From: an uncultured bacterium
GTDB lineage: Bacteria > Verrucomicrobiota > Kiritimatiellia > CAIKKV01
Length of the DNA stretch: 64,000 nucleotides
Direction: 5' to 3'
NCBI GenBank assembly: GCA_938038445.1
Contig: CALHRZ010000014.1
Location: forward strand, 1 to 64,000
Shown: positions 31,175 through 43,688 of the stretch, piece by piece
How the letters are laid out: every line of letters starts with the position of its first letter
Numbering within the stretch: the first letter of the stretch is position 1
The notes under the pieces: model-generated
What the model was told of the DNA's origin: nothing
What the model saw: the letters and a program-made list of their open reading frames with translations, nothing else
The model's database searches: none
Made by a program: the position numbers and the translations under genes

Positions 31175-31249
<75 letters not shown>

Positions 31250-31332: not shown

Positions 31333-31360
31333 TTGACAGTCCGCCCTTCGTCGTGATTAT
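31333..31360 (+). promoter_or_regulatory. Promoter of the large secreted protein-transglutaminase pair
   Basis: A perfect TTGACA (31333-31338) is followed after 16 bases by GATTAT (31355-31360). Transcription would start near 31367 and leave a roughly 20-base leader carrying AGAGAGG (31374-31380) before the ATG at 31388. Confidence 0.55.
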
Positions 31361-31387
31361 ATCGTTGTGATCAAGAGAGGGATGGGA

Positions 31388-34366
31388 ATGAAAGCACGAC
31401 TCATGGCCGGAAAAATCGCCGCAATGGGGATCGCGCTCAGCGTGGGTTGCCTTGGGGCGGAAATCACCCTCCGGGCGCGTGTCCTCTCGATCAAACCGGA
31501 GGGGAGTTATGTTCGCCTGCTCTATTCCACCGGAACAAAATGGGAAGAATTGACCCGGGAGAAACCCCGTCTCCCCACCATCGAACAGAGCCGTCCAGAA
31601 CCCTCCCACGATCGGCTGTCAATGGAATGGGGGGGGATCGTTATCCCAGAGGAAGAATCATCCGACCCGGCCGTTCTCCGAGAAGAAGGACCCACCTATA
31701 CAACCTTATGGATTCGTCCTGGCGTCTGGTCTCCCGACGCTCCGGTTTCCGATTTTCCTCTGTTCACGACTTTTATGGTCGTTCCCCGCCAGCAAACGGG
31801 GAAGCACCGCAGGGTTCAGCCAGGGGTCCTGGAATCCGTTGCCGTGGAGTTCCAGATCAGGGAGGGCGAACAGGTCCTCAAAACCTTTTCCGAGAAAGCC
31901 GGACCGAGTGGGCGTCTCACCATTCGGGTTGCAAGCGGTCGGCTTGATCCCAATCGCCCGGGCTTAACCGGCCTTTCTGTTTTTCTGGAGGAAACGATGG
32001 GGATTCTCGAGTATGCCCGCCGTCGAATGACCCATCTCGCTTCCCTTCCATGGGCTGACGGGCCCCGACCCTGCTTGTACGGGTTTTTAACGGCCTGTAG
32101 CGGTTGGAATTCCGGCGCCTCCGACCCGGAGATCTGGCAGGCCGAATATCGGACCCTGCGAATCATGGGCGTCAATGGACTGATGTATGACACCTGGCCG
32201 GGATTTGACGAGGAGGTTTGTCATGGCAACGAGTGGATGAAAGGATTCCGCCGCCTCCGCGGTTACAACCTGAATCAGATATTGCGTTGGGAGGGCGGAG
32301 GGTATCTGATTCCCGCGTTCGATCCCCGAAATCCCGAACGGTCGCGCGCGGAGGGGTGGGGGTGCCCGTTTCATCCCGCCCATCAAAGCCTTCCGCAGAA
32401 AATCCAAAAAGCCGTTGCCGATATGGTCGAACGCCTCCGCCAAACTCCTTATGAGGAATATTGGGGACAGACGGTGGATGAAATCGGCAGTTATTTTGAC
32501 CGATCGGCCGAACGGAAGGCGCATCAAGGGATTTGCCCCTACTGTACGGAAGCGTTCCGCGATTTTCTGCGCGGGTTCGGTCTCTCTCCAGACGACTTCG
32601 GCGTGGATTCGTGGGAGCCGATCCGATCCACATACGGCTACGTAAAGAGAGCGATATCCTCTTCGGCGAATCCATCCGTCTCCCAGCGCCCTGTCCCGGT
32701 GGACCTTGACCTTCGGGCTTCACGGGATATACCAGACGATGCGGAGCCGACTGCGGAAAAAGCGGAACCGCTGGTGGAAACCGTTTCCGCCGTTCCACCC
32801 TCCCATCCTTTTCCCGAGTGGGGTTGGTCGCTTCTCACCTATTACAGCCGGCGATTCAACAATGAGGCTTCGGCGCGGATTTTCACTCCCCTCCGCGACG
32901 CGTTGAATGCCCAAAATGCGCGCAAACGAAAGGCATTGGAGGAAGGTCCTTCCGATGCCCCCGAGGCGCAGCAGCCGTGGCTTTATGCCGGAGCGTTGCG
33001 CGGCAATACGTTTCTGATGGGCGGACACAGTTTGGATTTTTTTGACTGGTACCGCCATGCCGACAACGCATTCATGTATGAAACGTCCAACCGCGATCCG
33101 CGCGTTTGGCCGTGGGACAGTTATCTTTGCGACGTCGGACGGATCCATCAGGAAAAACTTGGCACGCGATTCACCCTCATGGTCAAACCCAGCCGAGGTG
33201 CAGTGATTCAACGCGCCCTTGCCGCTCTCGGGCGCGGCGTTCGAATGATATACTGGTACACGTACGGACCGGACTGGCATCATCCCGACACCTTTGCGCG
33301 GGAGATCGGCCGCCTGGAAAAAATCAGCCGGCTCGCCCAGATGCTGGGGGAAGCCGAATCCCGCCTTTATGAAGCGGAATGGGTGGCGCCGGCGCAAGTG
33401 GCGGTAGTGCGGCCGTTTACTTCATCGGTCTTTGAGGACAATGCCTCCTGGGAAAACGGTAAATGGGTCTATTCGATCCTCCAGCATCTTCATGTGCCGG
33501 TGGACGCGCTGGACGAGGGATATCTGATAAGCGAGGATCTATCGCGCTACCGGGCGATCGTGATCAGCGGGTCCCATCTCCGTCGGGATTGCGCTGTAAA
33601 ATTGAAAGAATGGGTCCGCGCCGGCGGAATGCTCATCGCCAGCGGTTGCGGACTGGCTCGAGACGAATCGGATCGGCCACTGGACATCCTAGGGGAGGTT
33701 CTGGGACTTTCGCAGCGTGTTCCGCCGACCTTGTGGAGTGAGGTCCGTCGTTATGGTGCCACAGCGCTTGCCGAGTACACCCCGCTAGCCGAACGGCCCG
33801 CTGGCGCCCGCGTAACCCTTCCGGGGGCGGAAAAGGAAGAGGCGTTCGACATCGTCGTGGGACGCGAGTTGTGGACTCCGTCCCCTGAGGCGGATATTCT
33901 TGCGCGATATGCGGACGGGTTTCCAGCCGTTGTTCGTCAGTCCTATGGCCGCGGCTGGGCCATTTCGTTCGGTTATTACGCAGGGCTCGAATATGCCGCC
34001 GACATTCTCCGACCGGATTTTGACACGTCCATCCACTTCAACCCATCCAAACGGCAAATCCTGGCATCCCAGCTTCAGCAGGCGGGCGTCGTGCCTCCTC
34101 TCCAAATCGCCCATCCGATGGTCGAAGGGTTGTGGTTGCGACACCCTTACACGCGAGAAGAAACGATTATGCTCATCAATTGGTCGTACCGGGGACGTGA
34201 GGAGGTTCCGCTCCCGAACGTCGAAATCCGGTGGCGCAGCGAACGCCCGGTCTCACGTGTTAAATCCACATGGTTTCAGCAACGGCTGAATGTCGAGAGG
34301 GAAGGGGAGAATCACCGATTAATCATTCCCCGTTTGGAAGACGGTGACATTTTGGCTCTGGAATAG
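31388..34366 (+). CDS. Large secreted glycosidase-like protein with GATase-like domain
   Basis: This is a 992-residue exported protein with a signal peptide near residues 1-24. The N-terminal part (about 30-190) is beta-rich. Residues about 215-650 look like a TIM-barrel glycosidase: MGVNGLMYDTWPGFD, EEYWGQTVDEIGSYFD (candidate acid/base Asp-Glu near 364-365) and RMIYWYTYGPDWHHP. Residues about 680-770 form a GATase-like domain (ISEDLSRYRAIVISGSH, then GGMLIASGCG) as in the trimerisation domain of GH42 beta-galactosidases. A C-terminal beta-sandwich follows. This order resembles GH42-related enzymes, but the catalytic pair is unproven. The ATG at 31388 fits the AGAGAGG site; an upstream GTG (31367) is less likely. 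The next gene starts 12 bases later. Confidence 0.72.
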   Translation: MKARLMAGKIAAMGIALSVGCLGAEITLRARVLSIKPEGSYVRLLYSTGTKWEELTREKPRLPTIEQSRPEPSHDRLSMEWGGIVIPEEESSDPAVLREEGPTYTTLWIRPGVWSPDAPVSDFPLFTTFMVVPRQQTGKHRRVQPGVLESVAVEFQIREGEQVLKTFSEKAGPSGRLTIRVASGRLDPNRPGLTGLSVFLEETMGILEYARRRMTHLASLPWADGPRPCLYGFLTACSGWNSGASDPEIWQAEYRTLRIMGVNGLMYDTWPGFDEEVCHGNEWMKGFRRLRGYNLNQILRWEGGGYLIPAFDPRNPERSRAEGWGCPFHPAHQSLPQKIQKAVADMVERLRQTPYEEYWGQTVDEIGSYFDRSAERKAHQGICPYCTEAFRDFLRGFGLSPDDFGVDSWEPIRSTYGYVKRAISSSANPSVSQRPVPVDLDLRASRDIPDDAEPTAEKAEPLVETVSAVPPSHPFPEWGWSLLTYYSRRFNNEASARIFTPLRDALNAQNARKRKALEEGPSDAPEAQQPWLYAGALRGNTFLMGGHSLDFFDWYRHADNAFMYETSNRDPRVWPWDSYLCDVGRIHQEKLGTRFTLMVKPSRGAVIQRALAALGRGVRMIYWYTYGPDWHHPDTFAREIGRLEKISRLAQMLGEAESRLYEAEWVAPAQVAVVRPFTSSVFEDNASWENGKWVYSILQHLHVPVDALDEGYLISEDLSRYRAIVISGSHLRRDCAVKLKEWVRAGGMLIASGCGLARDESDRPLDILGEVLGLSQRVPPTLWSEVRRYGATALAEYTPLAERPAGARVTLPGAEKEEAFDIVVGRELWTPSPEADILARYADGFPAVVRQSYGRGWAISFGYYAGLEYAADILRPDFDTSIHFNPSKRQILASQLQQAGVVPPLQIAHPMVEGLWLRHPYTREETIMLINWSYRGREEVPLPNVEIRWRSERPVSRVKSTWFQQRLNVEREGENHRLIIPRLEDGDILALE

Positions 34367-34378
34367 GGGGTACGCGCA

Positions 34379-35326
34379 ATGCGAAATGCATCCAAAATGT
34401 GTTACGGAGTGGCGGGAATACTCTGCGTAACTCTTTTAGAGGCGGAAAATCCGCCGGTGGTGGACCTCTCGGGGCCGGACTATACGCCCCCGGATGCACC
34501 GGCATGGATTCAAGAGGTCAAACCGGAGTGGATACGCCCCTGGGTCGGCCTCAATGGGACGCCTCCCGAATGGCGCCGGTGGGGAAACGTTATGGGGCGA
34601 GACGTCAAAGGACTCGACCGTTGGATGGCCAATCATTACATTTTCTACCGTCCGGAAACTGCGGAGTATCTTTATGCCGCCTATTCCCCCACTACGGTGA
34701 ATTATTCCAAAGGACTCCTTCCGTCCTATGAAAAGGCGGTCGAAACATTCACGGCGGGATGTACGAACGATTTGGAACGGGGATTGGCCCTCCTAACCCG
34801 CGCGATGCCGCAAGTGTTGCGGCATCCCGGAATGCCGCCTCTGGGGAAACCCGTGCCACCGGATCGGAATCTCGATGACGAAGCATTGCTTGCCACCGGA
34901 TCCGGCTGGTGCAATGAGCAGGCACGGGTTTTCATCCGTCTCTGCCAAGTGGCGGGTATTCCTGCTCGGATGATCCATCTTTTTGGGCAGAACCACACCA
35001 TCGCGGAGTTTTATGCGGGCGGAGGATGGATCATGGCCGATGCCAGCAATTTCTTCGCGGTCCCGTCGAAAGAGGGCAAGTGGCTGTCTGCAGCCGAATG
35101 CCATGATGGGGGAGAAGGACAACGCGCCTATGCCGAAGCCAAGGCCAAACGAATGGCAGAACTTATTGAAATGCCGGACGAGGCACTCGGTTTTTCCGAT
35201 CCTGTTCGCGCAGCCGCATGGAAAAAATCAGCCCCTGTGGACGTGGACGAATTGGCCAAACGACCGATTGCCTTCGGAGTGGTCAATTATCCGTTGCCGC
35301 CTCGAGGGAGTTCACTCAGCGAATAA
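34379..35326 (+). CDS. Secreted transglutaminase-like protein
   Basis: This is a 315-residue exported protein with a signal peptide (about 1-22) and a transglutaminase/cysteine-protease fold. The triad is in order: Cys178 in TGSGWCNEQARVF, His206 in LFGQNHTIAEF and Asp221 in GGGWIMADAS. The conserved RLCQVAGIPARMIH strand lies between. Bacterial members more often hydrolyse amide bonds or crosslink surface proteins than act as classical transglutaminases. It follows the large glycosidase-like gene by 12 bases, implying a joint extracellular job. Its last 11 bases overlap the convergent glycine-rich gene. Confidence 0.85.
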   Translation: MRNASKMCYGVAGILCVTLLEAENPPVVDLSGPDYTPPDAPAWIQEVKPEWIRPWVGLNGTPPEWRRWGNVMGRDVKGLDRWMANHYIFYRPETAEYLYAAYSPTTVNYSKGLLPSYEKAVETFTAGCTNDLERGLALLTRAMPQVLRHPGMPPLGKPVPPDRNLDDEALLATGSGWCNEQARVFIRLCQVAGIPARMIHLFGQNHTIAEFYAGGGWIMADASNFFAVPSKEGKWLSAAECHDGGEGQRAYAEAKAKRMAELIEMPDEALGFSDPVRAAAWKKSAPVDVDELAKRPIAFGVVNYPLPPRGSSLSE

Positions 35327-37670
35327 AAATAACGGTTCCGGACGGTTTTCGGGCCGTGACGAACCGGATCGTTCCGGCTTCTGCGTCGTTCGTAAAACTG
35401 ATCTGACCCGGCTCGACCGACAGCGTACCGAAGAAGGTGGGCGGTGGCGTTTCGCTTATCACAAGGTCGGAAGGATCCGGCTCAGAATCCCAGACCCGTC
35501 CAAACCACACGGCGATCCGCCCTCCGCCCCCTGCCCCGTCGGTTGTTGCATTATTCCCATCGCCTCCTCGCACGGTCACAGTGGCACCCGTACCACCGAA
35601 AAACTGCACGCATCGGAGGAAGATGGCGCCGCCTGAACCGCCGCCATGATTGACCCCCTTGGCGCCATCGGCATTCAGATCCCCGTGAAGGATCGCGTTT
35701 CCCGTCAAATCGAAACGAATCAATCCTCCCCCGTTGCCGCCCGCCGCGCCTGCGTATCCCGTTCGTCCCGCGCCTCCACTGCCAGGATAGAGGGGGCGAA
35801 GCGGGTCTCCATAGGTCGCACCCCGGGTCGCGGTTTGGCTGGAACGCCCGCCCCGTCCTCCATAACCGGCTCCGCTGCCGCTGTTCGCAGTCGCAGCTCC
35901 TCGGCCAGGACCGTGGCCATGCACACTGTAGCCAACGGAATTGATTCCTCTTAAAAAGCCGCGACCCTTTGCCGAAATGGCGGCATTCGTTGCAACATAC
36001 AGACTTGAGGCTGAAAAATAAACAGACCCGCCGTTTGTGGTGAACGATTGAGGATAGAGGTATGACGCAGGACCGACGATCAGATCGCCATCCACATGTA
36101 CCATGGCTCCATAGAAAGCAGAGTCGGGAAGTCCATTTGTGGGGTGGGCGAAAATATAAAGCTGCGCGCCGTTTGTGATTTCGAGTCTCCCGCATGCGAT
36201 GTTGGTGAACCAACTTTCCACAATCGCGTTGGTTCCGATGACGCGGAAGGTATTGGAAACGATTAACCCTCCAAAGTAATTGGAAGGAAAGCGAACCCAG
36301 CTGTTGCTCGCGATAAGGTTCCGGACCACCCAGTCGGTCCGTCCCGTCCACATCAACCGACCGCTGTGGGGAAAAAATTCTCCTTGGAGCAGCGACAAAT
36401 CTGGGAAATAGACAGTGCCCAGGTCTCCGTTAGAGTACTGGGCGGCAAGGCCGGGCCGGGCCGATAATTCGATGAGGGGCGGGGGAAGCTGGGTCTGCTG
36501 TTCCGGATCAAACAAAATCGCAATCCGTCCGCCTCCGCCGCCCCCGCCCGAACCAGTGGCGGCACCGCCATTTGCGCGAATCATTCCATTGGTGCCCATC
36601 AGTACGCCGCATTGAATCAGAATTCCCCCTCCCGAACCGCCGCCCCCTCTGCTATGTGGAGAATTCTGCCCATTGGCGGTAATCATTCCGTTGATCGTTG
36701 CCGCTCCATTGACATAAAGAAAAACCGCGCCTCCTCCGTGCCCTCCAACGCTGTCGTAACCCGTGGATGCGCCACCGCCGCTGCCGGGATTGTGAGCAAC
36801 CCCCGTGCCGTTCGTCTGTCCAGTTCCCCCATTGTATCCTCCCCCGCCTGCGCCTCCATGACCGCCTCCTGCGCCGGCATTTGCTCCGGCAGATCCTCCG
36901 CCTGGCCCCTGGCCGGTTGCCGTTTGATTCTTGGTGCCGCCTGCATACCCGCGGGCGTTGGCATCGATCTGCCCTGGGGACTGGAGCGTAAAGGTGTCGC
37001 AGAGAATCCACACCCGGTTGGACATCACGTTATTGGAAAAGGCCGTCGGCAGCGTGATCACGCCTCCCGTCACCGTCACATTCGAGGCGACGAGACAGGC
37101 GAACCAGTTTGAAAAGATGAGAGAACCTCCGCTCATGGTGAACGAGGCCGCCGGAGGGGTTGAATTGGTCAGCAAAATCGTCCCGTTGGTCAGGTAGGCG
37201 TGATCGAGCCCATCGTCCGGTATCCCGTTCGGGATCCAGTGGCTTTCGACAAACCACGAGCCGTTAGATGGCCCTGACCAGATCATTTCGCGCGCCTCGG
37301 CCCCAACGGTTTGGAACGTGTCATCCGCCGATTGAGAAGCCCCCTCGTTGTTGGTCGCCCAAGCATGGAATCCGTAGGACTGGCCGGGCGTGAGGTTGGT
37401 GAGCGTGGCCCAGAAGAAATTACCCGATCGACTGGCGGTCACGGCGGAGGTTTCCCCTCCCATCGGCCACCAGCGGAAACCGCAATTGGGTTCCGGATCC
37501 CCGATCACCGATAACTGAGCCGTAAGGCGTACGGTCGTCCGCCGAATTGTATCCGCGGCCCGTGAACCTATTTCCGGTGCTTCAGCATATCCTCGGCCCA
37601 AAAGCCGAATCCATGTGAAAAAGATTACGCCGGCAATCGCACGCGAAGTATTGGATATCCGTAGGTCCAT
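35316..37670 (-). CDS. Glycine-rich secreted surface protein with internal duplication
   Basis: This 784-residue protein has a signal peptide (about 1-30) and a fibronectin-III-like N-terminal domain (about 35-125) typical of cell-surface proteins. Two long Gly/Asn/Ser-rich modules follow at about 233-388 and 563-724. Each runs in the same order: an ANARG/AKGRG entry, a GPG stretch, a GGHGG/GYGGRGG run, a GSGG turn, GGGSGG and finally GGGGRIAI or GGGGRIAV. The pattern suggests a parallel beta-helix or glycine-loop repeat of an adhesin or shed surface layer. A separate beta-rich domain (about 400-560) lies between the modules. No sorting signal is recognised at the C-terminus. Confidence 0.8.
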   Translation of the reverse strand: MDLRISNTSRAIAGVIFFTWIRLLGRGYAEAPEIGSRAADTIRRTTVRLTAQLSVIGDPEPNCGFRWWPMGGETSAVTASRSGNFFWATLTNLTPGQSYGFHAWATNNEGASQSADDTFQTVGAEAREMIWSGPSNGSWFVESHWIPNGIPDDGLDHAYLTNGTILLTNSTPPAASFTMSGGSLIFSNWFACLVASNVTVTGGVITLPTAFSNNVMSNRVWILCDTFTLQSPGQIDANARGYAGGTKNQTATGQGPGGGSAGANAGAGGGHGGAGGGGYNGGTGQTNGTGVAHNPGSGGGASTGYDSVGGHGGGAVFLYVNGAATINGMITANGQNSPHSRGGGGSGGGILIQCGVLMGTNGMIRANGGAATGSGGGGGGGRIAILFDPEQQTQLPPPLIELSARPGLAAQYSNGDLGTVYFPDLSLLQGEFFPHSGRLMWTGRTDWVVRNLIASNSWVRFPSNYFGGLIVSNTFRVIGTNAIVESWFTNIACGRLEITNGAQLYIFAHPTNGLPDSAFYGAMVHVDGDLIVGPASYLYPQSFTTNGGSVYFSASSLYVATNAAISAKGRGFLRGINSVGYSVHGHGPGRGAATANSGSGAGYGGRGGRSSQTATRGATYGDPLRPLYPGSGGAGRTGYAGAAGGNGGGLIRFDLTGNAILHGDLNADGAKGVNHGGGSGGAIFLRCVQFFGGTGATVTVRGGDGNNATTDGAGGGGRIAVWFGRVWDSEPDPSDLVISETPPPTFFGTLSVEPGQISFTNDAEAGTIRFVTARKPSGTVIFIR

Positions 37671-37752: not shown

Positions 37753-40260
37753 TCATCGGTTGCAGAAAAGGCGATTCCCGACGTGAAGAACGGTGGGAGT
37801 GCCAAGCGTTTCGTTATTCCAAGGTAACCCGAGAGGACGTCCGGGCAGCAGATCAAAAAAATTGTCTGAAAATGGCTTTTCGCCGTCGAGATCCAGACAG
37901 ACCCTCCAAGCGAAAACAGGAGAAGAAAAAATGGCCATTCCATGTCGGCAGCGAACCCGAATCCGGGCGTCCGACCATTGCATTTCCCGAAAGCGCGGAA
38001 GAAACAGCCGGTCCTGGAAAAGAAGGGTGCCATCGGGATCGGTAAGAACCGCAAACGCACCATGCGTGTCATCACCCATGCGATGCCAGAGCCGCTCGGG
38101 GAACCGCCCCAGGCAGATCGAAGCATTTGGCGGCAATTCAACGGTCGTTTTCCGATGAAGGGGATACCCCCCCGCAAGCCCGAATAGGCCATACTCCAAC
38201 CGCCCCTTCCATGCCGCGCCCTCGTTCACACCGAACACCTGCACCTCCCCCTCTTCGCGCGCCAGAAATACGGCACGGGGCTGAAAGGCGCGTCGGACCG
38301 GATGATAGGAAGGGGTCCGCCGGCCATAATAATCCACGATCGTCCAACTACGCACCATCGGCCAGCAATCGTTATACATCCAGAATACGGCCGACGCGGA
38401 ATCGAACATTCGGCGACGGAAATTCCGAATATATTCGTGCAACCCTTCGCCCTGCAAAATACCAGCCGCAAAAACATACTCAGGAATCGTCAGGTTCTCG
38501 ATGTTGCACCCGAGCCATTCTTCGATCATTCGATCCGGATAGGGAATCTCTCCGCCCCAATAGGCGACGCTGTTATCCCCCTGTTCCCATGCGAACGATC
38601 CGACCTGCTGTTGCCCGTGCGGCAGGCAGGAAAGAACGGTCGGGAGTGAGGTCGGGCCAAGGATGCCTCCTTCGTTGGGGAACCGGCAGATCATCTGGCG
38701 ATAGTCCCGGAAATCCGTGTTTGCAAAGCCGACGCTCCAGGGATGCTGATCACCCACGTGGTCGGCCGTCGGCGATTCGTGGTCAGGCGAGTAAGGCGAA
38801 CTGGGAAGATAGAAGCGACTTCCATCTTCGGTTTTCACAACTCGCGGCAGCACGTGATGAAAAAGCGAATGGCAGGGAAGGGACACGCCGCGGTGATATC
38901 CCCAGTACCAATACCCTTGCTCAATCTCGTTGTTGCCGCACCACACAATGAGCGAAGGATGGTGGGCCAGACGCCGAACCTGCCCTATCGCCTCCCGCTG
39001 AACCTCCTGGGCAAAGGTCTCGTGATGGCCCGGATAACGGGAACAAGCAAAAATGAACTCTTGCCACAACAGAATTCCTTTCTGATCACACAGCGCATAC
39101 AACATCTCGTCTTCATAAAGTCCGCCCCCCCAAATCCGGAGAAAGTTGAAATTTGCCTCGAGCGCCCGATGGACCAACAGCTCGTAGCGCGTGCGATCCA
39201 GACGGGCAAGGATCGGGTCCGCAGGCACCCAGTTGCCGCCTTTCAAGAAAACAGGCTTTCCGTTGATTTCAATCCGAAAATACCGCCCACGGATCGGATG
39301 AGGTTCCTGGTTAACGCGAACGTGCCGAAAACCGATCTGACGCGATTGCTTCTCCGTCTTCCGATGGTGGCCGATTCCCCATTGGAGGGACGCGAAAACC
39401 ATGTAAAGAGGTTGTGCGCCATGCCCGATCGGCCACCACAATGAGGGCTGCGGTACATCGAGAACAGTTTCCAAGACCGATTCCCCGGGCGGAAGTTGAA
39501 ATGCCCCGTTCTTGCGAATGGGCGTTTTGCCGATTCTCACAGTCCAGGACGCGTTGATCGGCTTGTCCGTCAGATTGACAGCCGGCCAACGGACCCGCAC
39601 ATGGCCGGTCTTCAGATCGTCGGAAACGCTCGCAATAACCACCAGGGGGTCAACCCGCAGCCCGGAAGTAATTTCAAGGCGGACGCCGCCACGGATCCCC
39701 ACGTTGGCAAGCCGTTTTGCCCAATCCCATCCAAACGCGCTCTGCATGGTGCGCAGCCAAGGTCGGCGGACCGGATCGCCCCGCACCAAACCATCGTCCG
39801 GCTGAGACGCGCCGTGAAAAAGACCCGCTTCGACGGAAACCACGATCGTGTTTGTCCCCGAATGCAATTGCTTGGTGACGTCGAATCGGGCAGGGCGAAA
39901 GGCGTTGGCGTGACGGCCGATTTCCACGTTATTCAACCAGATGACCGCCGCCAGATCCAACGCATCGAAAACGAGCCAGGCCCTTTCTCCCGCCTTCAGC
40001 CGCGGTGCGTTGAAAACGCGCTGGTAATGCCAATGCACGTCCTCCATCCACCGGCAGAACAGGCTGTTGATTCCTTCGACAGGATCCGGAATGATTCCGG
40101 CGCGCATCAGATCCAGATGCACCGCGCCCGGAACATGCGCCGGAATCGCCCGGGTCATCGTGGCCGGTTGAGGGGGGAAAATCCGATCCGGTTTGTCCCC
40201 CCGTTGCCCGTCATGCCAACGCAAGCGCCAGGAACCATTGAGTGAGATGAGACGAGTCAT
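37753..40260 (-). CDS. Glycoside hydrolase family 2, beta-mannosidase-like
   Basis: This is an 835-residue cytoplasmic GH2 enzyme without a signal peptide. The family order is complete: an N-terminal jelly roll (about 1-195), an immunoglobulin-like domain, then a TIM barrel starting near 340 (KGGNWVPADP). The acid/base glutamate is Glu445 in WCGNNEIEQG, and the nucleophile is probably Glu530 in RFPNEGG. Overall length and the NGKPVFLKGGNW entry fit beta-mannosidases better than beta-galactosidases or glucuronidases. GAGGA precedes the ATG. It is divergent from the sialidase-like gene and shares its regulatory region. Confidence 0.87.
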   Translation of the reverse strand: MTRLISLNGSWRLRWHDGQRGDKPDRIFPPQPATMTRAIPAHVPGAVHLDLMRAGIIPDPVEGINSLFCRWMEDVHWHYQRVFNAPRLKAGERAWLVFDALDLAAVIWLNNVEIGRHANAFRPARFDVTKQLHSGTNTIVVSVEAGLFHGASQPDDGLVRGDPVRRPWLRTMQSAFGWDWAKRLANVGIRGGVRLEITSGLRVDPLVVIASVSDDLKTGHVRVRWPAVNLTDKPINASWTVRIGKTPIRKNGAFQLPPGESVLETVLDVPQPSLWWPIGHGAQPLYMVFASLQWGIGHHRKTEKQSRQIGFRHVRVNQEPHPIRGRYFRIEINGKPVFLKGGNWVPADPILARLDRTRYELLVHRALEANFNFLRIWGGGLYEDEMLYALCDQKGILLWQEFIFACSRYPGHHETFAQEVQREAIGQVRRLAHHPSLIVWCGNNEIEQGYWYWGYHRGVSLPCHSLFHHVLPRVVKTEDGSRFYLPSSPYSPDHESPTADHVGDQHPWSVGFANTDFRDYRQMICRFPNEGGILGPTSLPTVLSCLPHGQQQVGSFAWEQGDNSVAYWGGEIPYPDRMIEEWLGCNIENLTIPEYVFAAGILQGEGLHEYIRNFRRRMFDSASAVFWMYNDCWPMVRSWTIVDYYGRRTPSYHPVRRAFQPRAVFLAREEGEVQVFGVNEGAAWKGRLEYGLFGLAGGYPLHRKTTVELPPNASICLGRFPERLWHRMGDDTHGAFAVLTDPDGTLLFQDRLFLPRFREMQWSDARIRVRCRHGMAIFSSPVFAWRVCLDLDGEKPFSDNFFDLLPGRPLGLPWNNETLGTPTVLHVGNRLFCNR

Positions 40261-40348: not shown

Positions 40349-41479
40349 ATGACATTTGCCGACCCTCCCACCGACCTCTTTCACGGCCCGGGAAATCCCC
40401 GCAATTCGGAAGGTTCTTTCGTGACGCTGAAGGATGGAAGGATTTTGTTTGTCTGGAGCCGATTCCAGGGTGAGAGCGGCAGCGATCATGCGCCTGCTGT
40501 GCTGGCGGCGCGGATATCCTCGGATGGCGGCCGCACCTGGCCGCCGGCAACGGAACGGGTGGCGGTCGAAAATGCGGAGGGGTTCAACGTGATGAGCGTT
40601 TCGCTTCTTCGCCTTCACGATGGGCGTATTGCCCTTTTCTATCTGCGCAAGGACTCCCTCGAACAATGTCTGCCGATGGTCCGTTTTTCCACCGACGAAG
40701 GGCATGCGTGGAGCGACCCGGTGTGTTGCGCGACATGGCGCGGCTATTACGTGGTCAACAACGACCGAGTGATCCAGTTGCGCAACGGTCGGTTGCTGGT
40801 GCCCGCTGCCTGGCACCGGACCTATCAGCGGGTCGGCGAATCGACGCCCGTTGGAATTGACAGAAGAGGCCATTTCACCGTGTTCTATTCCGACGACGGC
40901 GGGAAATGCTGGCAAGAGGGACCGGAATGCTGGGCATTGCCCAGCGGAATTCACAGCCTCCAAGAACCGGGCGTGATCGAACGAAATGACGGAACGATTC
41001 TCGCCTGGTTTCGAACGACTACCGGCCGCCAGTGGTGGAGCATCTCGCGAACGGGCGGCGAAACATGGACGCTTCCCGCACCGTGGCGTTTTCGTTCGCC
41101 GTGTTCCCCCTTATCGCTCAAACGCATCCCGTCAACGGGCCACTGGTTGGCCATATGGAACGATGCGGCATGGGCGGTTCGGCGATGGGGGGAGGCCAAA
41201 CGGCTCATTTGGGGACGCTTGTCGGATCAAAGCTGGGGCCGAACGCCCCTTGCCGTGTCGATCAGCCGGAACGATGGAAAAAGGTGGGGACATTCCCGGA
41301 TCATCGAGTCGGAACCTGACCATGGGTACTGCTATACCGCTCTCCATTTCACCGAGGATGCCGTCCTTCTCGCCTACTGCTGCGGCGGCGGCATGCAAAG
41401 TACTGTTTTGCAGGATTTGCGAATCCGCCGAATCCCTCTTCAGTGGTTTTACGAGGGACGGAATGATTTGACCGCATGA
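40349..41479 (+). CDS. Sialidase/BNR Asp-box repeat protein
   Basis: This is a 376-residue six-bladed beta-propeller protein of the sialidase superfamily. Five Asp-box turns are spaced along it: SSDGGRTW (57-64), STDEGHAW (114-121), SDDGGKCW (181-188), SRTGGETW (233-240) and SRNDGKRW (306-313). An RNSEGSF N-terminal strand supplies the first arginine. It has no signal peptide, so it is cytoplasmic like its divergent GH2 partner. True exo-sialidases carry an Arg triad and a Tyr/Glu pair; Arg-rich candidates are present, but the triad is not confirmed. Sialic acid or another acidic sugar is therefore only a plausible substrate. The end overlaps lacI by 31 bases. Confidence 0.8.
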   Translation: MTFADPPTDLFHGPGNPRNSEGSFVTLKDGRILFVWSRFQGESGSDHAPAVLAARISSDGGRTWPPATERVAVENAEGFNVMSVSLLRLHDGRIALFYLRKDSLEQCLPMVRFSTDEGHAWSDPVCCATWRGYYVVNNDRVIQLRNGRLLVPAAWHRTYQRVGESTPVGIDRRGHFTVFYSDDGGKCWQEGPECWALPSGIHSLQEPGVIERNDGTILAWFRTTTGRQWWSISRTGGETWTLPAPWRFRSPCSPLSLKRIPSTGHWLAIWNDAAWAVRRWGEAKRLIWGRLSDQSWGRTPLAVSISRNDGKRWGHSRIIESEPDHGYCYTALHFTEDAVLLAYCCGGGMQSTVLQDLRIRRIPLQWFYEGRNDLTA

Positions 41480-42558: not shown

Positions 42559-42594
42559 CAAGGAAATCTCATATGCGAAAACACTTGCGATTCT

Positions 42595-42776
42595 GAACAG
42601 GGTGTGCGATCTTATCGCATCCGTAGGGAAAACGGAAGTCCGTGAGAAACGGACGCGGTCCCGCCGCTGTAACCGGCTACTGGCCTTTTGACAGCCACTG
42701 TTTGCATGTGCAAATGGGAAGGGAAAGGGCCGGGTTAAAACCGGAAGCCAGAAGACGTTCCCAGCGGTGTTCAACC
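42595..42776 (+). ncRNA. Cobalamin riboswitch
   Basis: This is a structured leader of the B12-operon mRNA. Diagnostic elements appear in order: GGGAA at about 42626, CGGAAGTCCGTGAGAAACGG, GTCCCGCCGCTGTAA at about 42658-42672, a variable region, and the B12 box AGCCAGAAGAC (42746-42756). The element binds a cobamide and reduces expression of the downstream genes. The exact 5' boundary is approximate. A single element preceding eleven colinear genes suggests that the whole operon responds to intracellular B12. Confidence 0.93.
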
Positions 42777-42777
42777 C

Positions 42778-42796
42778 CTCTTTCGAAAGAAAAGAG
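42778..42796 (+). promoter_or_regulatory. Candidate anti-RBS hairpin of the riboswitch
   Basis: CTCTTT (42778-42783) can pair with AAAGAG (42791-42796), which abuts the GTG start at 42798. The perfect palindrome TCTTTCGAAAGA (42779-42790) is an alternative stem. Sequestering the ribosome-binding site this way would fit translational control; no terminator-like T-run follows. Confidence 0.4.
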
Positions 42797-42797
42797 A

Positions 42798-43688
42798 GTG
42801 AGTGTTCGCTTTTTTTCTTTGATGGCCAGTGTGCTTCTCGCTGCGACGGGCTGTCGCCGCGCACCCTTTCAGGACGCCGGTGAAGCCGCGAGCACGCCGC
42901 CCCGGCTTGTATCCCTCGCTCCGAACCTTACGGAAATCCTCTTTGCGGTCGGCGCCGGGGATCGGATTGTCGGCCGCACCGCGGCTTGCGATTATCCGCC
43001 GGAGGTCGAACGCATTCCCATCGTGGGCGACTTTGGCGCGCCTTCCTTCGAAAAATTGATCCAGTTGAAACCGACGGCTATTCTCTATGCGGACCTTGAA
43101 GATCGGACGCTCCCCGAACGGCTGCGTGCGGCGGGGCTTCAACCGGTTGGAATTCCTTGCCTCACGCTGGATGATATTTCCGCAGCGATGGAACAGATCG
43201 CAATCCTGGCCGGCCGGGAAGAAACTGGGCGAGCCGCTGCCGCCCAATTCCGGGAGAAGGTGGCGCAGGAACGGCGTCGAGCAGCGGGTTATTTGCGCAA
43301 ACCGCGCGTTTATGTGGAATATTGGGGCGATCCCCTCTATTCAGCCGGTCGGGGGTCCTTCGTCTCCGAACTGGTCGCGCTGGCCGGCGGGACGAATCTC
43401 GGGGATGAAATCGCCGCGCCCTATTTCCAAGCTTCCCCGGAGTGGGTTTTGGCGCGAGATCCCGAAGTAATTCTCTGTCTCTATCATCTAACCGACGGTT
43501 CACCTATCGAACGTATTCGTTCCCGCCGGGCGTGGCAGAATGTGCGAGCGGTGCGCGAAGGACGCCTTTGCGCCGATTTGGACGTCAATTGCATCCTCCG
43601 ACCCGGACCGCGCGTGTTGGAAGGCGTTCGACAACTTCGGCGGTGTCTCCAGCCTGATGACCAACAAGCTCCCCTCACTATCCCATGA
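42798..43688 (+). CDS. btuF: Vitamin B12 ABC transporter substrate-binding protein BtuF
   Basis: This is a 296-residue periplasmic lipoprotein of class III binding proteins (two lobes joined by a helix), which hands corrinoids to BtuCD. A short signal ends at LLAATGC (putative lipidated Cys19). The mature protein starts PPRLVSLAPNLTEILFAVGAG and continues with RTAACDYP, IPIVGDFG and FEKLIQLKPTAILY, the family's landmarks. A longer frame reaches 42642 but runs through the riboswitch, so the GTG at 42798 (AGAAAAGAGA upstream) is preferred; an ATG at 42822 would lose part of the signal. The end overlaps cobT (ATGA). Confidence 0.9.
   Translation: MSVRFFSLMASVLLAATGCRRAPFQDAGEAASTPPRLVSLAPNLTEILFAVGAGDRIVGRTAACDYPPEVERIPIVGDFGAPSFEKLIQLKPTAILYADLEDRTLPERLRAAGLQPVGIPCLTLDDISAAMEQIAILAGREETGRAAAAQFREKVAQERRRAAGYLRKPRVYVEYWGDPLYSAGRGSFVSELVALAGGTNLGDEIAAPYFQASPEWVLARDPEVILCLYHLTDGSPIERIRSRRAWQNVRAVREGRLCADLDVNCILRPGPRVLEGVRQLRRCLQPDDQQAPLTIP

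Follow-up and report, generated by a model that had tools for sequence, protein, structure and literature searches.

A putative GH42-superfamily glycosidase gene followed by a transglutaminase-fold gene in a Kiritimatiellia genome: a possible two-gene unit for glycoprotein-like material

Two adjacent genes in a 64,000-nucleotide stretch of DNA from an uncultured bacterium of the Kiritimatiellia (contig CALHRZ010000014.1, assembly GCA_938038445.1; the whole stretch is called the window here) may form a two-gene unit that acts on glycoprotein-like material, with the first protein, P1, cutting the glycan and the second, the transglutaminase-fold protein TG, carrying out a hydrolysis. We propose this tentatively, with slightly less than even confidence. 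The evidence that carries it is the recurrence of TG genes beside genes for DUF4838 or GH42M proteins, which is solid, together with the GH42-like architecture of P1 and the predicted catalytic triad of TG. The two genes are as follows:

31388..34366, plus strand: P1, 992 residues, from ATG at 31388 to the stop at 34366; putative secreted GH42-superfamily glycosidase
34379..35326, plus strand: TG, 315 residues; transglutaminase-fold protein, probably secreted

An earlier note on this DNA had described a 992-residue open reading frame (ORF) with a second one twelve bases on, and the coordinates, the common strand, and the 12-nucleotide spacer are all borne out. A purine-rich stretch (by eye) precedes both starts, and an alternative GTG at 31367 would lengthen P1 by 7 residues. 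Both proteins are probably secreted, as suggested by signal-peptide-like N-termini read by eye, and the two genes are likely co-transcribed as an operon.

Family and recurrent neighbors of TG

TG matches Pfam Transglut_core (PF01841) with E=3.5e-11 (43.8 bits against a cut-off of 23), as do all 15 subfamily members scanned at E<=0.1, and the alignment of this subfamily predicts the following catalytic residues:

34910..34912, plus strand: C178, catalytic Cys
34994..34996, plus strand: H206, catalytic His
35039..35041, plus strand: D221, catalytic Asp

This triad is kept in 16/16 strong members, and the earlier identification of a Cys-His-Asp transglutaminase agrees with both the Pfam match and the presence of Cys178-His206-Asp221. 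The columns invariant in 15/15 members also include Tyr99, Tyr109, Pro115, Glu118, Glu168, and a Glu four residues past the His. Judged by its sequence, TG belongs to a rare Transglut_core subfamily: a 10-member profile found it at E<=1e-10 in 11 of 387 genomes of the phylum (the window's own included), seven of which had supplied the profile while four gave weak matches. The strong loci counted here are the 16 with E<=1e-29, ten of which are the rows that built the profile. Weaker matches stand outside this count, four from the phylum search and 13 (including L135-L137) from the genomes of the P1 orthologs (G, C, and L numbers are our handles for genomes, contigs, and loci), where matches at E<=0.001 numbered 8 in G391 (three strong), 3 in G392, and 8 in G393 (three strong). 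L068, a weak relative (E 8.7e-6) that the phylum search with the profile did not return, was left out of the tree and the triad count. The 16 strong loci have these neighborhoods:

Window: partner P1 upstream, TG second
Own genome, C6: the genome's only close TG paralog, overlapping a DUF4838 gene by 4 nucleotides, TG first
G232, three loci: TG fused to a C-terminal region in one protein
G296: TG between two secreted-looking proteins of 730-750 residues, followed by an SSF symporter
G061 and G252: a common protein of 565/583 residues, next to TG in G061 and one gene removed from it in G252
G287 (L061): GH42M protein as the third gene upstream, an MFS-like gene (by eye) lying between it and TG
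G391 C244: GH42M gene directly upstream, TG second
G391 C231: DUF4838 gene 13 nucleotides upstream, TG second
G393 C223: TG forms the end of a 998-residue protein, the rest of which has no Pfam match
G393 C47: adjoins a 1442-residue protein whose heparinase II/III match stays below threshold (23.2 against 24 bits)
G349, G391 C11, and G393 C96: no neighbor recognized as a partner when compared with the query set

The next gene on the strand of TG has a Pfam GH42M or DUF4838 match above the cut-off in 4 of the 16 loci (window, own C6, L129, and L131). The GH42M protein of G287 is above the cut-off for GH42M and just below it for GHL6 (33.9 against 35 bits), and the partner in G391 C244 resembles a GHL6-family protein (E 5e-14) without a PF14871 match and with an apparent frameshift in the metagenome-assembled genome (MAG). 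The proteins flanking TG in G296 share a stretch with the fused region of G232 (phmmer E 2e-6 to 5e-9 in a 19-protein set; hhalign 96%). When the G232 fused region, L062, L067, and DUF4838 proteins were compared by hhalign with GH42, GHL6, and P1, no firm link emerged, the best being DUF4838 with GHL6 at 28%, and a GHL10 match (E 0.061) was too weak to be used; these partners are at most candidate TIM barrels or glycosidases. DUF4838 is strongly expanded in two of these genomes (15 matches in the window's genome and 28 in G391, against matches in 1/14 control genomes, none above the cut-off), and close to one of the fused TGs of G232, on the opposite strand, is a gene for a protein weakly like DUF4838 proteins (E 3e-8; L063:9344-11263, plus strand).

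In a 16-row tree, the TGs of the window, own C6, and G391 C244 group together at 100/100, and the partners of this one group are P1, a DUF4838 protein, and a GHL6-like/GH42M protein. Both the DUF4838 and the GHL6-like/GH42M partners are found in a pair of TG clades split by well-supported branches, which forces two changes for each partner type; partners have therefore been exchanged, gained, or lost repeatedly. By a rough post hoc estimate, which assumes an even spread of genes, ignores the clustering of such genes, and counts G391 C244 (whose GH42M match was below the cut-off in the genome scan though its ORF passes), a TG would lie within 1 kb of a DUF4838 or GH42M ORF with a chance of 3.9% per TG in the window's genome and 0.15% for two of two, while the chance for at least two of three TGs in G391 is 0.7%; jointly, C6 and G391 give about 3e-4 without the window pair and 1e-5 with it, the window pair being what prompted the search.

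These figures bear on one alternative, namely that two secreted degradative genes with no common substrate came to lie together incidentally in a genome rich in such genes. That genome does hold 14 DUF4838 and 7 GH42M ORFs above the cut-off, and P1 orthologs have no TG neighbors in their ORF lists. Nevertheless, we consider incidental pairing unlikely, as neighbors of DUF4838 or GH42M type (or P1) accompany both close TGs of the window's genome and two of the three strong TGs of G391, the rough chance without the window pair is small, and TG fusions exist.

Architecture and candidate catalytic residues of P1

An AlphaFold2 (AF2) model of P1 built from four sequences reached a mean predicted local distance difference test (pLDDT) score of 51.6, with the N-terminal beta and GH42M domains mostly usable, and we delimited four regions:

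31463..31957, plus strand: N-terminal beta-rich domain, about residues 26-190; strands, pLDDT mostly 60-89 with gaps
31970..33367, plus strand: (beta/alpha)8-barrel-type region, about residues 195-660; from Foldseek and hhalign, low AF2 confidence
33389..34102, plus strand: GH42M (trimerisation) domain, about residues 668-905; from Pfam, the AF2 model, and VIA-align
34103..34363, plus strand: C-terminal beta domain; from the AF2 model and VIA-align

In Pfam, P1 matches GH42M alone (E=7.7e-6, 26 bits against a cut-off of 25.8); its paralog on contig C24 of the same genome scores 30.2 bits, above this cut-off, and its ortholog L040 21.4 bits, below it. Neither the GH42 catalytic domain (PF02449), for which the genome has three matches that all lie elsewhere, nor GHL6 (PF14871) matched P1 at E<=1, and an NCBIfam scan of P1 and TG gave no match at E<=1. 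With the P1 model as query, the top eight Foldseek matches were all GH42 enzymes (best 5xb7, E 8.6e-14), and lower ranks held exo-beta-D-glucosaminidases, a beta-1,2-glucosyltransferase, a GH151 fucosidase (rank 41), and GH164 (from rank 46). VIA-align superposed model residues 545-992 on 5xb7 with Z 21.4 and a root-mean-square deviation (rmsd) of 3.5 over 335 residues. A PDB search with a 4-row P1 profile returned weak matches named beta-galactosidase or exo-beta-D-glucosaminidase (best 6jow, E 3.4e-5). The sole PDB match of the P1 sequence itself, an antifreeze-protein chain (4p99, E 0.0026), had no single passing stretch and was disregarded.

Profile comparisons by hhalign point the same way. 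The 5-member P1 clade aligned with 13 GH42 proteins of the class (the final set, 13 of 15 loci, without L089 and L097) at 99.4% over 469 columns, and its barrel alone at 78.8% over 77 columns only, against 0.1-0.2% for reversed-profile controls (0.2% at full length); a smaller set of six GH42 proteins gave 98.9% for the full length and 43.3% for the barrel alone. A wider, 9-member P1 family reached 99.8% with GH42 (558 columns) and 97.9% with GHL6 proteins (521 columns; 14 of 15 loci, without L109 and with L104 shortened), and the P1 clade itself aligned with GHL6 at 97.2%, though in its C-terminal half alone. We therefore hold the barrel fold of P1 with moderate confidence, on profile and fold-alphabet evidence, the model being poor in this region. 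The earlier note had made its case depend on a TIM barrel in P1, and such a barrel is supported by these comparisons but not by a good model.

The residues that bear on catalysis are the following:

32477..32482, plus strand: D364-E365, the latter aligned with the beta4 acid/base Glu of GH42
33080..33082, plus strand: E565, a Glu conserved on or close to beta6 and a candidate for the second catalytic role
33182..33184, plus strand: V599, at the position of the GH42 beta7 nucleophile Glu

E365, in TVDEIG, aligns with the acid/base Glu of the GH42 NE motif, and the ensuing GH42 Cys pair aligns with CPYC. The GH42 nucleophile (WILEQ / LLMES) aligns with V599 of LMVKP in the 13-protein set, and drops into a gap beside V599 in the 6-protein set. 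The V599 column holds a Glu in 0/17 members of the P1 family; the predicted absence of the GH42 nucleophile from P1 is solid. The beta4 Asp-Glu motif is kept in 16/17 family members (the exception being the GHL6-type L061), and a Glu of the E565 type ([MV]YETSN or [WC]xED[WY]) in 15/17, with C6a and L061 as exceptions. Equating E565 with the xED Glu is an ungapped reading by eye, and E565 is a candidate catalytic residue of P1 with moderate confidence. A 1591-residue P1-family protein with HEAT repeats (L044:4932-9704, minus strand) keeps the beta4 DE motif and, lacking the beta6-type Glu motif, may be inactive.

P1 has a GH42-like architecture, as the predicted order of barrel, GH42M, and C-terminal beta domain indicates, and by its sequence it is not a member of GH42. 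The description of P1 as reminiscent of GH42 thus holds for the domains (Pfam GH42M, Foldseek, and hhalign) and does not extend to catalysis, because the beta7 nucleophile is absent.

Relatives of P1 occur at E<=1e-5 in 31 of the 387 phylum genomes, the window's own included, where 13 matching rows at E<=1e-3 make up nine loci: P1 and eight others, among them a GH35 protein (C10) and the C24 paralog (39-47% identity). Three full-length relatives (L040-L042; 36-42% identity in the best segments) are found in MAGs titled Planctomycetota, the L041 row of the alignment beginning 15 nucleotides ahead of the likely ATG. The genomes of L040 and L042 carry strong TG-subfamily genes elsewhere. At L040:3280-10609 (plus strand), the P1 ortholog stands without TG, flanked on its own strand by genes for a DUF4838 protein on one side and a BNR/LamG protein on the other, and this is another multi-gene glycan locus.

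A possible joint function and its alternatives

We favor the view that P1 and TG would work outside the cytoplasm. P1 would be a GH42-superfamily glycosidase, perhaps an oligomer as its GH42M domain suggests, that likely uses E365 (beta4) and E565 (on or near beta6) and not the beta4/beta7 pair of GH42. With its C178-H206-D221 triad, TG would take up an acyl group as a thioester and most likely pass it on to water, so that a peptide or amide bond is broken in the substrate on which P1 acts. Since TG relatives pair with DUF4838, GHL6-like/GH42M, and unassigned proteins, TG probably recognizes a feature common to several glycan substrates, such as the protein part, and because the pairing recurs with different partners, its action is unlikely to be confined to a single sugar. 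These catalytic roles and the common substrate are what we infer, and hydrolysis is the more economical guess because the partners look degradative.

In the PDB, a 15-member TG profile came closest to 3isr, which is named a putative cysteine protease (E 8.4e-7); its matches also included 6g49, a protein-glutamine gamma-glutamyltransferase, at E 0.0036 and the peptide N-glycanase 2f4m at E 0.25. Peptide:N-glycanase (PNGase) is a transglutaminase-superfamily enzyme, and TG might likewise be a glycopeptide amidase that severs the link between sugar and protein, leaving the partner glycosidases to work on the freed glycan. The shared superfold and the variety of partners would suit such a linkage-directed enzyme; however, the 2f4m match is not significant, both 3isr and 6g49 score better, and we regard this role as quite improbable. 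A crosslinking role for TG, whether on a surface protein or in attaching P1 to the cell surface or the substrate, we judge similarly improbable. A Cys-His-Asp triad also supports true transglutaminases, and the name of the 6g49 match fits them, but the recognized partners resemble degradative enzymes and in G232 TG is fused straight to its partner region. The earlier note had offered joint attack on glycoprotein material, for example mucin-like, or crosslinking of a surface glycoprotein. Joint attack is the better of these two options and is strengthened by the occurrence of TG beside, or fused to, varied genes resembling those of glycan enzymes, whereas nothing favors mucin, sulfated glycans, or crosslinking.

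Several observations weigh against degradation of a common substrate by P1 and TG. The exact pair was seen in the window only, and no TG adjoins the orthologs L040-L042 in the ORF lists (the L041 contig being only 6.4 kb long). In 3/16 TG loci (L060, L130, and, at a contig end, L134), compared with the query set only, no partner was recognized; the partner is without assignment or below the Pfam cut-off in 8/16 (L062-L067, L132, and L133), and hhalign linked none of the tested unassigned partners to known glycosidases. On the side of P1, the GH42M cut-off is barely cleared and the L040 ortholog falls short of it, the barrel has pLDDT <50 over most of residues 220-660, Foldseek TM-scores are low (0.29 by query length for the best match, with rmsd 10), and the VIA-align result chiefly tests residues 493-992. 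In the alignments with GH42, E565 lies either shortly beyond the WDSYP stretch of beta6 (in the smaller set) or in an insertion, and hhalign places it one residue off the Glu of its relatives. The single-sequence model of TG was poor (pLDDT 45) and was not taken into a fold search.

Glycan-degradation loci are usually read as sugar enzymes, transporters, and sulfatases. A recurrent transglutaminase-fold enzyme with varied glycan-enzyme partners, sometimes joined to them in one polypeptide, would point to a protein-directed step in such loci and offer a way into the many unassigned secreted enzymes that these bacteria have. If confirmed, the shifted conserved Glu of P1 would also show clearly that a catalytic residue can migrate within the GH42 fold. 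A bolder version, which we think unlikely, makes the TG subfamily a hitherto undescribed linkage-cutting module of secreted glycan degradation that is exchangeable among several kinds of partner protein, and makes the P1 clade an unassigned glycosidase family of GH42 fold whose second catalytic Glu has moved from beta7 to beta6.

Upstream of P1 lie sigma70-like hexamers (TTGACA-16-GATTAT, 31333..31360, plus strand, 10/12 match), which the earlier note had called a strong promoter; this site is present, but the region holds two promoter-like sites against 2.0 +/- 1.6 in shuffled sequence, which is chance level. A tRNA-Gly gene lies further upstream on the other strand (31175-31249). Downstream, a glycine-rich 784-residue ORF (35316-37670, minus strand) converges on TG and overlaps its last 11 bases; it has a look-alike on contig C12 of the same genome (L046, by eye) and a relative in L068 (E 1.2e-18). 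Outside the P1-TG unit, nearby and divergent, are a GH2-type protein (37753-40260, minus strand) and a BNR-repeat (sialidase-like) protein (40349-41479, plus strand). A cobalamin riboswitch (RF00174, 83.1 bits; 42588-42778, plus strand) overlaps the start of ORF 42642-43688, the true start of which is therefore likely further downstream.

Comparison with known systems

With the GH42 beta-galactosidases and alpha-L-arabinopyranosidase (5xb7, 4oif, 8ibr), P1 shares the domain order, the beta4 Glu, and the Cys pair after it (CPYC); unlike them, P1 has an extra N-terminal beta domain, an insertion at about residues 415-475 (by eye), Val599 in place of the nucleophile, and no PF02449 match. The GH151 alpha-L-fucosidase, as described in PMC10154630, has its catalytic residues on beta4 and beta6 (the Asp nucleophile D154 and the acid/base Glu E235, which we located in structure 6tvk) and none at beta7, so a beta4/beta6 catalytic layout exists in a related fold. 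P1 has the barrel and a GH42M-like domain in common with it and differs in having no GHL6 match, the P1-clade alignment with GHL6 reaching the C-terminal half only. A first reading by eye had equated E565 with E235 of GH151; hhalign did not align D154 and E235 with the E365- and E565-type residues, and we do not claim this equivalence.

For TG, the likeness to the transglutaminase-like putative cysteine protease 3isr lies in a Transglut_core-type core and is confined to about 58 profile positions. A literature search on the pairing of transglutaminase and glycosidase genes found no report, subscription papers being largely beyond its reach. In the cellulosome of Ruminococcus flavefaciens, dockerin-borne transglutaminase-like proteins are listed under peptidases (PMC2930009), and they share with TG a secreted transglutaminase-like domain within a glycan-degrading apparatus. 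These proteins are joined via dockerins, with no pairing to one glycosidase gene described in the part of that source available to us, and they are the nearest precedent seen for TG.

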